Shown here one piece after another: positions 34,143 through 38,185 of a stretch of 64,000 bases of DNA (positions are counted from its first letter, which is position 1; every line of letters starts with the position of its first letter). Source of the DNA: Chryseolinea serpens (GTDB lineage Bacteria > Bacteroidota > Bacteroidia > Cytophagales > Cyclobacteriaceae); the NCBI RefSeq assembly GCF_900129725.1, contig NZ_FQWQ01000001.1, positions 992,001 to 1,056,000 on the forward strand, written 5' to 3'. The notes beneath the pieces were generated by a model that ran no database searches, was not told the origin of the DNA, and was given only the letters and a program-made list of their open reading frames with translations. The position numbers were made by a program, and so were the translations under genes.

Positions 34143-36770
34143 TTATTCGTTTTTGAGGACTTCGGATGGGTTGGCGCGGGCCACCTTCAGGGTTTGGGAG
34201 CCGATCATGAGCAGCGCGATCACCGTGACGGACACGAGGCTGATCACCAGTTCCACATATCCCAAAGGCGGATGATACACAAAGTTGACCAGCACTACCC
34301 TGTCAAAAAGCAGATAGGTAAACGGCAACGCCACAGCGGCCGCCAGGAGCAACAGAAAGAGAAACCCCTTGCTCAACAGGTAGATCAACCGGCCCTCGCT
34401 GGCCCCCAGCACTTTGCGGATGCTGATCTCTTTCAAACGCGTTTCGGCGGTGAACACGACCATACCGAACAACCCCAGCGACGCAATGCACACCGCCAGG
34501 AAGGCCACGGTGCCGATCACTTTGATCATGGTGGCAAACATGCGGTAGGCTTCTTCGATCTGGTCGTCATAAAATTTCGCATCCAGGGGATGCACCTTGT
34601 CGACCTTTTGCCAGGCAGCTTCAATGCGGGCGCGCGTGGCGGGCCAATCATTCGTCGTCACCTTGACGTTGAGGTAGCCCCAGGGTTCGTGGGCGCTGTA
34701 GCGCAGGGCCATCGGTTCGATCGAATTTTCCACCGTGCCGTAATGAAAGTCCTTTACAACGCCTACAATGGCCAGCTTCTTTTCGTCGATCAGAATAATT
34801 TCTCCCAAAGCTTTGGCGGGATCCTGTGGCGAAATATTGAACCGTTTCAAAAGTTGCTCGTTCACCACGGCTTCGCTTTCCTCGGCACCATCCGGCAAGG
34901 CCTTCAGATTTTTTCCTGCCAGAAACGTATGCCCATGCAAAGGCAGGTATTGCTCGTCTACATAATTTAGCCACACGACGATGGAGTCGTTGAGGTCCTT
35001 GTATTTCATGCCGGCCCCTTGCAGGCTGCCCAGACTGGTCACGATCCGTGACACCGAAATGGCTCCTACTTCGGGCACCTCCGCCAATTCCTTTTTTATC
35101 AATTCTTCTTTGTTGTGTTGCAACCGTATGTTCAGGATGTGCGCCGTGTTAAAACCCAGGTCAAAGGTGAGAAAGCTTTTATACTGGTTGTACCCGATCA
35201 GCGTGGTGGTAATAAAAATCAACGAAAAACAATACTGGACAACGATCAACGCCTTTCGCAGGTTTACGTGCCGGAATACCTTCAACGCAGACGAACCCTT
35301 CAATACCTGTATGGCATTGATCTTCGAGAAGAACACCGCCGGCAACAGCCCCGAACCAAACCCCACGACAAGGGCCATCAGCACAAAGTAAAGCACCATG
35401 CGCGACGTGAGATCCAGCGACACCAGGTCCGACAAAAATCTATCCAGCGAAAGAAATTGTACACGAAGAAACAGGAACAACACCAACGCGATCGCCAAGG
35501 CCATCAGCGCAATGATCGTTGACTCCACAATGAATTGCCATCCTACCTGGTGTTTCAACGCTCCCATCACTTTCCGGATCCCCACCTCGCGCGTGCGGCG
35601 CATGGACCGGGCAATGGACAAGTTGGTGTAGTTAAAACCCGCCGAAAGAATGATGATGAACGCCAGTCCTTCGAAAAAATACAAAGCCACAGGACGCATC
35701 ACCGGGCCGATCTGGTTGCTCAGTTTCTTTCCCAGCACTATATTTTCTAAAGGTTGCAACTGCAGGGAGATCGTTCGATGTTCAATGCGGGCATTCTCAG
35801 CGGCACTTAGTTTATCCAGGTTTGCTTGGAATGCGGCAGGGTCGGAGTCTTTCGGGAGAAGCACGTAGGCACAAATGGAGTAAATGTTGGTCCACGTATT
35901 AAAGCTGCCACCCTCTTCCCGATGCTCTTTCGCCGACGAAAAGGAGACCAGCGCGTCGAATCGGAGATGCGAATTTTTCGGAACGTCTTTGACCACGCCG
36001 GTCACCACATAGTTTGTTGTGTCGAACACCACCGACTTTCCCAACACGTTCACATCGCCGAATAAAGTCTTGCACATTTTCTCTGAAAGGACCAGGGAGT
36101 AAGGTTCCTTCAGTGCCGTGGCCGGGTTGCCTTGCAGCAACGGAAAGGAAAAGATGTTAAAAAAATGTTCGTCGGCCCACACCGCGGACACCGGGATAAC
36201 GGACTCGCCTATCCTGGCGTCGCCGCTAAACCCATTCCGCACCAGCGTAAAGTCTTCTATACCGGAAAGGGAAGTATCCACTTTTTTTCCCGCAACAAGC
36301 GAGGTTGTTGCAAGATCCATCGCCGGCTCGCCAAGCCGCTGGTCGTGCGTGATCACCCTGTAAATGCGATCCTTCTTCGCATGAAAATCATCGAACGACA
36401 AAAGCTCGGTCACCAACGCGATCACCAGCAACCCCACCGACATGCTCACGGCCAGACCGGCAATGTTGATGAACGAGAACAACTTATGCCGCATCAAACT
36501 GCGGCCCGAGGTTTTAACGTAGCTTCCAATCATGATCCAATGCAGTAAGAGGTTTACAAATTCTGGTTTTCGTATCGTATACAACCTGAAAAACTTAAAC
36601 ACATCCGCGATGTAGATCCAACGCGCCCGCCTTGGCCCTTTGGCCACCACGTTACGTTCAAAATACTCGTTCAGGTCACCTTCCAGGTCTTCGGCCAACT
36701 CGGGCTTGCAGTACCAATGCAGTAGGCGTTGTGCCCAACGGGGTGGCCGCGTGTCGTTTATAGGCTTCAT
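34143..36770 (-). CDS. FtsX-type permease with N-terminal permease-prefix domain
   Basis: The 875-residue protein begins with a short prefix domain (about residues 9-70: PPRWAQRLLHWYCKPELAEDLEGDL...), characteristic of PadR-linked Bacteroidota permeases. A double MacB_PCD/FtsX layout follows: TM near residue 97-125 (MRHKLFSFINIAGLAVSMSVGLLVIALV), FtsX cores near 380-460 and 755-865 (ETRLKEISIRKVLGASEGRLIYLLS). Its start overlaps the stop of the PadR gene by 4 bp (ATGA), so translation is coupled. The fold suggests extrusion or membrane mechanotransmission; no ATPase is adjacent. The gene at 57249 is its closest paralog but lacks the prefix. Confidence 0.9.
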   Translation of the reverse strand: MKPINDTRPPRWAQRLLHWYCKPELAEDLEGDLNEYFERNVVAKGPRRARWIYIADVFKFFRLYTIRKPEFVNLLLHWIMIGSYVKTSGRSLMRHKLFSFINIAGLAVSMSVGLLVIALVTELLSFDDFHAKKDRIYRVITHDQRLGEPAMDLATTSLVAGKKVDTSLSGIEDFTLVRNGFSGDARIGESVIPVSAVWADEHFFNIFSFPLLQGNPATALKEPYSLVLSEKMCKTLFGDVNVLGKSVVFDTTNYVVTGVVKDVPKNSHLRFDALVSFSSAKEHREEGGSFNTWTNIYSICAYVLLPKDSDPAAFQANLDKLSAAENARIEHRTISLQLQPLENIVLGKKLSNQIGPVMRPVALYFFEGLAFIIILSAGFNYTNLSIARSMRRTREVGIRKVMGALKHQVGWQFIVESTIIALMALAIALVLFLFLRVQFLSLDRFLSDLVSLDLTSRMVLYFVLMALVVGFGSGLLPAVFFSKINAIQVLKGSSALKVFRHVNLRKALIVVQYCFSLIFITTTLIGYNQYKSFLTFDLGFNTAHILNIRLQHNKEELIKKELAEVPEVGAISVSRIVTSLGSLQGAGMKYKDLNDSIVVWLNYVDEQYLPLHGHTFLAGKNLKALPDGAEESEAVVNEQLLKRFNISPQDPAKALGEIILIDEKKLAIVGVVKDFHYGTVENSIEPMALRYSAHEPWGYLNVKVTTNDWPATRARIEAAWQKVDKVHPLDAKFYDDQIEEAYRMFATMIKVIGTVAFLAVCIASLGLFGMVVFTAETRLKEISIRKVLGASEGRLIYLLSKGFLFLLLLAAAVALPFTYLLFDRVVLVNFVYHPPLGYVELVISLVSVTVIALLMIGSQTLKVARANPSEVLKNE

Positions 36771-37099
36771 GCTTTTTTCAGGATCAGGTCAGGGATGCGG
36801 TTCCACAGTTCGTCGCGCACTTCTTTGGCTTTGATCAGCGCTGCCTTGCCGCCGTTGGTCACCGTGTAATAGCGTTTTCGTTTCCCTCCCCGCGTGCTGG
36901 TGGCTTCGCCCAATGTGCTTTTCACAAACCCCTTGTCCTCCAACCGGTTCAACACAGCATGCACCACACCCAGCTTCGCCGCGCGCCCCGCATGCTTCTC
37001 CAACTCGTCGCAAATGGCGACGCTGTAGGCATCGTTCACCAACGTGGCGATGGTGAGCAACACCAGTTCCTCAAACTCTCCCAGGTTTGTTCCTTTCAT
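36767..37099 (-). CDS. PadR family transcriptional regulator
   Basis: The 110-residue winged-helix protein shows the PadR pattern: GTNLGEFEELVLLTIATLVNDAYSVAICDELEKHAG, VVHAVLNRLEDKGFVKS and RGGKRKRYYTVTNGGKAAL (wing). These small PadR proteins are repressors that usually respond to membrane or drug stress and control the gene they overlap. Here that is the prefix-permease at 34143, with a 4-bp overlap. A pseudo-palindromic candidate operator is located 14 bp upstream of its start. The inducer is unknown. Confidence 0.93.
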   Translation of the reverse strand: MKGTNLGEFEELVLLTIATLVNDAYSVAICDELEKHAGRAAKLGVVHAVLNRLEDKGFVKSTLGEATSTRGGKRKRYYTVTNGGKAALIKAKEVRDELWNRIPDLILKKA

Positions 37100-37112
37100 G
37101 TCTGATGATTAA

Positions 37113-37130
37113 TTACGTAAATGTATGTAA
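37113..37130. promoter_or_regulatory. Candidate PadR operator
   Basis: TTACGTAAATGTATGTAA is an imperfect palindrome with 14 of 18 positions matching its reverse complement. It lies upstream of the PadR gene, in an AT-rich stretch likely to be its promoter. Autoregulation through this site is inferred. Confidence 0.5.
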
Positions 37131-37250
37131 AATAGTTTTAGTTTTGCAAGCAGGCGTTTTTGTAATTCTGAAAACAGATCCAGATCACCGTCCCGCACGA
37201 CCTTTTGGTTTTCTAAAACCGATGGGGAATTATGGTATTGAAGAAAAATA

Positions 37251-37375
37251 GCTGTACACCGATTCGAACGGTGTGACATAATCGGTTTTAGCCAGGCATA
37301 AACTACCCAGGTAGAGCGGTGGGATTCGAACCCATTCGACTATGGTTTTGCCATTAAACTAACAGCCGGCGCAAG
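37251..37375 (-). ncRNA. Two tRNA-like modules without anticodon arms
   Basis: On the minus strand two modules follow each other. Module 1 has TAGTTTAATGGCAAAAC (D-arm-like), a 10-nt spacer (CATAGTCGAA), then TGGGTTCGAATCCCA (T-arm-like). Module 2 has TAGTTTATGCCTGGCTAAAA (ending C), a 10-nt spacer (CGATTATGTC), then ACACCGTTCGAATCGGTGT. Both lack room for an anticodon arm by about 13 nt, and the shortfall is the same. GGCTGT before module 1 can pair with ACAGCT after module 2. They could be decayed tRNAs or a dedicated tRNA-like RNA; neither module is a functional tRNA as it stands. Confidence 0.5.
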
Positions 37376-37397: not shown

Positions 37398-38185
37398 CCC
37401 ATAGAAGTACTGCTGCACGTTCGGAAAAAAGCACGTCGTTCCGCAGGCACAAGTTTCATCGATCTTCGCACTGGACCAAGGAACCCCGTGGATAGCGCGT
37501 TGAATCTGTGTGGTGATGCATTTGACGCGGACGGGGCGCATTCGGTGTTGGCCGAGTTCTTTTTTACGGAAGCACTTCGCACGTTCGACAAAGGACGTCG
37601 TTCCGCAGGCACGCACGTCCTCTGGCTTCACACGTTTTCAAGGAACCCCGTGGAAAGCTCACTGGATCTGTGCTGCATTTGAAGGGGGCGGGCTGCATTC
37701 GGTGTTGGCCAGGTTTCGTTTATTCTGTGCGAAGCTTAGCCACGTCCACCGCATTCGAAACTCGGGATGTCTTGAACTGCTGACGTAGGTTTTTAGAAAA
37801 CTTGTGCCTGCGACATGACGTGCGGTTCGGCGCACATTGGATGTGTGGCGATGCATTTGAAGCGGGCGGGGCGCATTCGGTGTTTGCCTGGTTTCGTTTT
37901 ATTCCGAGCGAAGCTTATCCACGTTCACTGCATTCGAAACCCGGGATGTCTTGAACTGCTGACGTAGGTTTTTAGAAAACTTGTGCCTGCGACATGACGT
38001 GCGGTTCGGCGCACATTAGATGTGTGGCGATGCATTTGAAGCGGGCGGGGCGCATTCGGTGTTTGCCTGGTTTCGTTTTATTCAGTGCGAAACTTTTCCA
38101 GGTTCACTGCATTCGAAACTCGGGATGTCTTGAACTACTGGAGTAGGTCCTTATGCAACTTGTGCCTGCGACATGACGTGGGTCT
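37398..38185. repeat. Tandem array of 157/179-bp units with inverted cores
   Basis: The array has two unit types. Type A starts near 37398 and 37568 and contains GTCGTTCCGCAGGCAC, followed by GGAACCCCGTGGA. Type B units are offset by 178 and 179 bp (anchors GAAG at 37681, 37859 and 38038) and contain CTTGTGCCTGCGACATGACG. The type A core is the reverse complement of the type B core. All share GATGCATTTG followed by GGGCGCATTCGGTGTT. No protein-coding frame with a family signature was found. Confidence 0.85.

Follow-up and report, generated by a model that had tools for sequence, protein, structure and literature searches.

Cells and viruses make tRNA mimics that recruit or block tRNA-handling proteins. 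To our knowledge, the known bacterial mimics carry one tRNA-like fold, and no other RNA is known with the architecture described below. Permuted, split and intron-bearing tRNA genes, as well as dimeric pre-tRNAs, mature to ordinary tRNAs with an anticodon. The bacterial Y RNA of the YrlA type (PDB 6CU1) is described as a circularly permuted tRNA mimic with a D-arm, a T-arm, a closed acceptor and no anticodon, whose single tRNA-like domain sits on a basal stem that binds Rsr/Ro60 (PMC8394870; PMC11472068). Dimers of tRNA are reported to form in vitro or by a mutant mitochondrial tRNA (works cited in PMC7357161). No RNA of the kind reported here was found in Rfam 15, or in the titles and abstract beginnings of the open-licence papers searched.

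In the genome of Chryseolinea serpens, the minus strand at positions 37367-37249 of the window (the whole stretch of DNA analysed, 64,000 nucleotides) holds an RNA element of about 119 nt, in which two modules of D-arm, 10-nt spacer and T-arm follow each other in tandem. Judged from sequence comparison, the element is very probably a stand-alone noncoding RNA gene with two tRNA-like folds that share one anticodon-type helix. An earlier, sequence-only reading had pointed to two tRNA-like modules on this strand without anticodon arms and with spacers of exactly 10 nt, and both observations hold (spacers at 37344-37335 and 37284-37275). Its proposal that GGCTGT and ACAGCT pair and so close the modules into one RNA is borne out by an outer stem of 6 bp, including one G-U, that pairs in 11/11 homologues. 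Absent from that reading was a pairing between the spacers themselves: the first eight bases of spacer 1, CATAGTCG, are complementary to CGATTATG of spacer 2. This 8-bp pairing accounts for the missing anticodon arms, because the strands that would form the two hairpins pair with each other in a single inter-module helix. With both the spacers and the outer ends paired, the result is one closed RNA with two tRNA-like folds on one helix. Along the minus strand the order is GGCTGT, TA, D-arm 1, CATAGTCG-AA, T-arm 1, the linker CTAC-CTGG-GTAG, D-arm 2, CGATTATG-TC, T-arm 2, ACAGCT and A. The features are as follows, with counts that refer to the homologues and simulations discussed further on.

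37249..37367, minus strand: whole RNA element (about 119 nt), with two predicted tRNA-like folds and one common stem; supported by covariance-model matches, alignment A5, covariation and selection
37362..37367, minus strand: 5′ strand of the outer acceptor stem, GGCTGT, with G37367 as the predicted 5′ end of the RNA; pairs in 11/11, too little variation for significance alone (71/1000 simulations)
37345..37359, minus strand: D-arm 1 (GTTT/AAAC stem, GG in loop); stem invariant in 11/11, hence no covariation test
37337..37344, minus strand: strand 1 of the shared anticodon-type stem, CATAGTCG; two-sided changes in 6/8 pairs, 0/1000 simulations
37320..37334, minus strand: T-arm 1 (TGGG-TTCGAAT-CCCA) of the inner fold; 4/4 pairs kept, one with a two-sided change
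37303..37314, minus strand: CTAC-CTGG-GTAG, a likely hairpin closing the inner fold at the acceptor place; nearly invariant (no covariation test), lower in energy than the D-arm alternative in 11/11
37285..37303, minus strand: D-arm 2 (GTTT/AAAC stem, GG in loop) of the inner fold; stem invariant where aligned
37277..37284, minus strand: strand 2 of the shared anticodon-type stem, CGATTATG; support as for strand 1
37256..37274, minus strand: T-arm 2 (ACACCG-TTCGAAT-CGGTGT) of the outer fold; two-sided changes in 4/6 pairs, 3/1000 simulations
37249..37255, minus strand: 3′ strand of the outer acceptor stem, ACAGCT, and a discriminator-like A; no encoded CCA

The outer fold follows the normal tRNA order and has free ends and an open acceptor. 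Its acceptor and T-stem stack comes to 6 + 6 = 12 bp, which is the usual total in tRNA, and the TA after GGCTGT may be the counterpart of U8-A9, which it resembles. The base that follows the outer stem is A in 9/11 sequences and G in 2/11. The inner fold has a circularly permuted order (T-arm, closed end, D-arm) and is closed near its acceptor end, with a spacing of 2 nt to the T-arm. The element contains no anticodon; the strands of the shared stem lie about 52 nt apart, with the inner fold in between. The elbow bases of both folds (GG in the D-loops and TTCGA in the T-loops) are invariant in the 11 sequences, and across the 11 genomes the parts keep the same order and the length is nearly constant at 121-124 nt.

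Within the inner fold, the last G of the CTAC-CTGG-GTAG hairpin doubles as the first base of D-arm 2, so that the two compete for one G. The closing hairpin beats the D-stem alternative by energy in all 11 sequences, and neither one varies. The RNAalifold consensus of a structure-free alignment of five sequences (A3, below) instead pairs columns 62-68 with 74-80 into an inner helix, some of whose base pairs are broken in as many as two of the five sequences; the D-arm, being invariant, was chosen over it. The minimum-energy fold of the window copy includes the two T-arms together with the outer and shared stems. Its energy is unremarkable (z -0.40), and 60 of 200 shuffled sequences fold equally well. 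As the folding energy of the window copy is not unusual, the case for the RNA element rests on its relatives. The same ordinary energy speaks for the locus being debris of tandem tRNA genes, or chance, a reading that can be given almost no credence once compensatory changes, selection, and the constant order and length in 11 genomes are set against it.

A DNA search found full copies in four of the five other genomes of the genus, the exception being G005 (genomes are given by G numbers, with G000 for the own genome). A covariance model, R1, built from the five genus sequences, matches five of the six genus genomes with one copy each. A second model, R2, was built from 11 sequences and matches 11 of 390 family genomes, which belong to four genera of one family and carry a single copy each; these matches are the same 11 sequences from which R2 was built (that of G1003 with the coordinates of locus L031). 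An earlier family draw searched with R1 gave 11 matches in 295 genomes, of which one, L021, is an ordinary tRNA. In the large samples, searched with stricter filters under which weak matches may be lost, the order sample matched in 1 of 390 genomes, the own genome only, and the class sample in 13 of 395, namely the own genome and 12 ordinary tRNAs, with no other real match. Both L021 and the class-level matches L048-L059 were dropped before counting, as ARAGORN calls a tRNA gene at the matched place in 13/13. A scan of genomes of 84,980 species with a core pattern, which may omit the own genome and cannot match the short-loop form in G092 and G211, returned six records, titled Chryseolinea (three), Chryseosolibacter, Fulvivirgaceae and Flammeovirgaceae. 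Viral contigs searched with the core pattern, plasmids and phages held no copy. These matches suggest a narrow RNA family within one bacterial family.

Two viral contigs contain an exact copy of a 20-nt D-arm string and were rejected as bearers, their best score (22.3 bits) falling on an ordinary tRNA. One viral contig, IMGVR_UViG_3300023082_000008 (L136:2842-2945), carries eight tRNA genes, and its copy of the 20-nt string lies inside an uncalled tRNA-like piece.

Covariation was measured on two alignments. Alignment A5 holds the 11 sequences aligned to the covariance model and therefore leans towards the structure, which was first drawn from these sequences; standard pairs fill 98.6% of its 349 cells, and two-sided changes occur in 12 of the 32 pairs. 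Neither the pairing nor the two-sided count was reached by any of 500 shuffles, and the number of pair types was reached by 20 of 500. Sliding the partners by 1-3 columns lowers the pairing to 31-50%. Alignment A3 comprises five sequences aligned with MAFFT without the structure, which was drawn from the same five sequences; here 98.8% of cells pair and 6 of 32 pairs are two-sided (1/500 shuffles). A tree-based null kept the change count of each column and placed the changes at random on the element's tree. None of its 2000 simulations reached the observed pairing (98.6% versus a mean of 91.2%), two-sided pairs (12 versus 3.2) or two-sided cells (26 versus 5.1).

The signal is carried by particular stems. 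For the shared stem alone, the two-sided pairs were reached in none of 1000 simulations and the two-sided cells in three; T-arm 2 is also significant by itself. The outer acceptor is not, because this stem hardly varies, and both D-stems are invariant and so contribute zero covariation support. Across the alignment there are 20 G-U cells and one A-C cell, which identifies the minus strand as the RNA strand. These results uphold the suggestion of the sequence-only reading that the shortfall shared by the two modules does not reflect independent decay, and its alternatives of a degraded tandem tRNA or chance fail, since 11 relatives have the same covarying double element and not a full-length tRNA.

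Comparison of the own genome with its sister G001, which share the locus, shows how strongly the element is kept. The RNA element is identical at 118/120 positions (98.3%), whereas the stretch from the element to the PadR promoter is identical at 67/104 (64.4%; shuffled mean 47%), and the fourfold sites of the permease and phospholipase genes agree at 65.6% and 64.0%, respectively. Debris would resemble the adjoining DNA, so an element kept this much better is not debris.

On its 3′ side the element is followed by PadR and permease genes in G000, G001 and G002; G092 and G211 have three genes in common on that side. Across genera, clustering yields no common neighbour apart from one recurring permease family, whose position varies. 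As the neighbours differ between genera, the element probably acts in trans. Its place upstream of the same PadR gene in three genomes could also mark a cis-regulatory leader of the downstream PadR/permease operon. This is very improbable: the PadR orthologues of G003 and G004 lack the element, which sits elsewhere in those genomes, the PadR gene has a conserved upstream block of its own, and the other genera have no PadR neighbour. That block, TTTTACATACATTTACGTAAT at 37100-37145 of the window, is kept in the five genus genomes compared, with or without adjoining RNA, and is likely a promoter or operator. The PadR-like regulator itself (36767-37099) belongs to a large paralogous set, with 25 matches in G000, 29 in G001 and none in G005 at the same threshold, and precedes a MacB/FtsX permease gene.

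On the other side of the element, the window has a tandem array between the phospholipase gene and the RNA (37674-38180 in TRF, with a period of 179; by eye, further and more diverged copies start near 37400). The sequence-only reading had linked this array to the modules. In G001 the element directly follows the phospholipase gene with no array, and TRF places the window array away from the RNA, so the link is not supported and the array looks unrelated.

The distribution also invites the view of a small element that moves or is passed on horizontally and whose likeness to tRNA helps it to spread, in the manner of a SINE or an integration site. Presence is patchy (11/390), neighbours change between genera, a gene in G004 runs into the RNA element, and the copy in G176 matches that of G004 at 94% identity and that of its genus-mate G102 at 78%, a likeness that may reflect horizontal transfer. 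We give this view a slim chance. Each genome has a single copy, the place is the same in G000, G001 and G002 (3′ side) and likewise in G092 and G211, and both sequence and pairing are under strong selection. A scan of 20 neighbour proteins gave Pfam matches for 16, with no mobile-element family among them, and transfer alone would leave the fold unexplained. The DUF1801 relatives in G172 and G192 offered no usable empty site.

The promoter signal upstream of the element does not differ from controls (mean score 5.73 versus 5.42), the sigma-70-like sites found lie within the element, and no terminator-like site was found on its strand. In 5/11 loci (L022, L023, L025, L026 and L029) a same-strand gene ends less than about 80 nt from the predicted 5′ end or inside the element. 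The absence of a promoter common to the loci, taken with these upstream genes, suggests that the RNA is released from longer transcripts, and it would at times be read through from the upstream gene. At L025:1791-2957, in Chryseolinea bin CF_bin.38, the frame of a VWA-domain protein enters the element and has its stop codon inside it.

On the natural sequence, ARAGORN calls no tRNA in the window, in any of the 11 natural elements or in any of 22 single modules; the tRNA model RF00005 scores 15.2 bits on the element against a cut-off of 29, and Rfam 15 at gathering score has zero matches in the whole window. Once the insert gives way to a generic 7-nt loop, 11/11 outer folds are called as tRNA by ARAGORN (0/1100 shuffles), in keeping with its acceptor, D-arm and T-arm with elbow bases. 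With a generic acceptor, the inner fold is called in 2/11 (0/1100 shuffles), which makes it the less perfect mimic. Identity as a tRNA fails on the absent ARAGORN calls, the sub-threshold score and the lack of a 7-nt anticodon loop. Identity as a tmRNA (RF00023) was likewise rejected, there being no family-model match in the window and no G3-U70.

The complete outer acceptor, T and D parts, an A or G at the discriminator place, and the fact that an unencoded CCA is usual here (8 of the 47 tRNA sequences of the own genome end in CCA as called) would suit an outer end that is aminoacylated and used outside normal decoding, either in a tmRNA-like manner or as an amino-acid donor in biosynthesis. 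Such a chargeable acceptor seems quite unlikely. The element has no anticodon and no clear identity element, as the third outer acceptor pair varies between C-G, U-G and U-A and the alanine identity pair G3-U70 is thus not conserved; no biosynthetic gene occurs among the 20 neighbour proteins, and the own genome has a separate tmRNA (C8:456049-456440). That genome encodes tRNA genes for all 20 amino acids. It also holds a cluster of odd, divergent tRNA genes for Asn, Lys, Pro, Tyr and Arg (G000:C3 86088-88484; L089, L103 and L113), with ordinary duplicates elsewhere, which by eye resembles the tRNA set of a phage or mobile element.

The inner fold invites comparison with YrlA, since it has the permuted tRNA-like domain, with the reservation that its closing hairpin is nearly invariant and lies outside the covariation support. 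Five Y-RNA-like stretches lie beside the Ro60 (TROVE) gene of the own genome (L001:1-720, minus strand; G000:C10, about 3265786-3266505). All five contain TACTTCG, and two have a clear order of T-arm, hairpin and D-arm. The element could thus be an offshoot of bacterial Y RNAs, Ro60/Rsr-bound and PNPase-linked, in which the Ro60-binding stem was replaced by a second tRNA-like fold. Besides the part order that the inner fold shares with those two clear stretches, this is favoured by the distribution of TROVE, which occurs in 5/10 bearers tested and in 17/285 other genomes (Fisher p 0.0003, uncorrected for kinship or genome size, with G1003 left out and on the assumption that the TROVE and R1 searches drew the same 295 genomes). 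We nevertheless regard such an offshoot as unlikely. The other five bearers tested, including the single-contig genome G001, have no TROVE match; in the own genome the element lies 2.2 Mb from the Ro60 gene; and TACTTCG and CCGTA, the latter common in the Ro60-side stretches, are both missing from 11/11 elements. These two words may form the basal-stem motif that binds Ro60. The element may therefore work like the tRNA-mimic half of YrlA, and it lacks the marks by which a Y RNA is recognized.

Comparison establishes a covarying double tRNA-like sequence that is under selection and tied to no single neighbour gene. Both D-arms have the same GTTT/AAAC stem, which is missing from all 47 distinct tRNA sequences found in the own genome, and this shared stem hints at tandem duplication. 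The gene would have arisen by tandem duplication of one tRNA-like unit, followed by strand swapping. Enzymes of tRNA processing would trim its transcript at the outer acceptor, with RNase P acting at G37367 and CCA being added, and the product would act in trans as a two-headed tRNA mimic. The two elbows of D-loop and T-loop would bind tRNA-handling or RNA-decay proteins as a decoy or tether, a role that we put forward tentatively. That the element is a natural, covalently joined and strand-swapped tRNA pair, selected as a bivalent adaptor to join two elbow-binding proteins or two copies of one, is possible though doubtful. Taken as a whole, architecture and mechanism together, this explanation stands at about an even chance of being right.

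If true, the element would be a natural bivalent ligand, with a pair of elbows on a single stem. It would show that a strand-swapped tRNA dimer can be an evolved, heritable gene, and it would define a new architectural class of noncoding RNA, reached from duplicated tandem tRNA by a change of function. It would also show that tRNA finders and Rfam miss genes of this kind, as both missed this one. The homologue set and covariance model make the element directly testable.

Ultimately, the element can be placed by what it has in common with each known system. It is like tRNA (RF00005) in its outer acceptor, D-arm, T-arm and 12-bp acceptor/T stack, but has no anticodon loop, and its anticodon stem is common to a second fold. 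Like tmRNA, it has a tRNA-like end with a large insert instead of an anticodon arm; it differs in being only about 119 nt long, in filling its roughly 52-nt insert with the inner fold, in its complete D-stem and in the absence of G3-U70. Permuted, split and intron-bearing tRNA genes and dimeric pre-tRNAs likewise rearrange, interrupt or repeat the parts of a tRNA; the element, unlike them, encodes no anticodon. The inner fold is alike to YrlA in its permuted T-arm, closed end and D-arm without anticodon, but in the element the stem continues into another tRNA-like fold, no Ro60-side motif is present and five of the ten bearers tested have no Ro60. The tRNA dimers also join two tRNA bodies by swapped pairing (works cited in PMC7357161). 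Those dimers, however, consist of two molecules, whereas here one RNA encodes both folds and the pairing is conserved.
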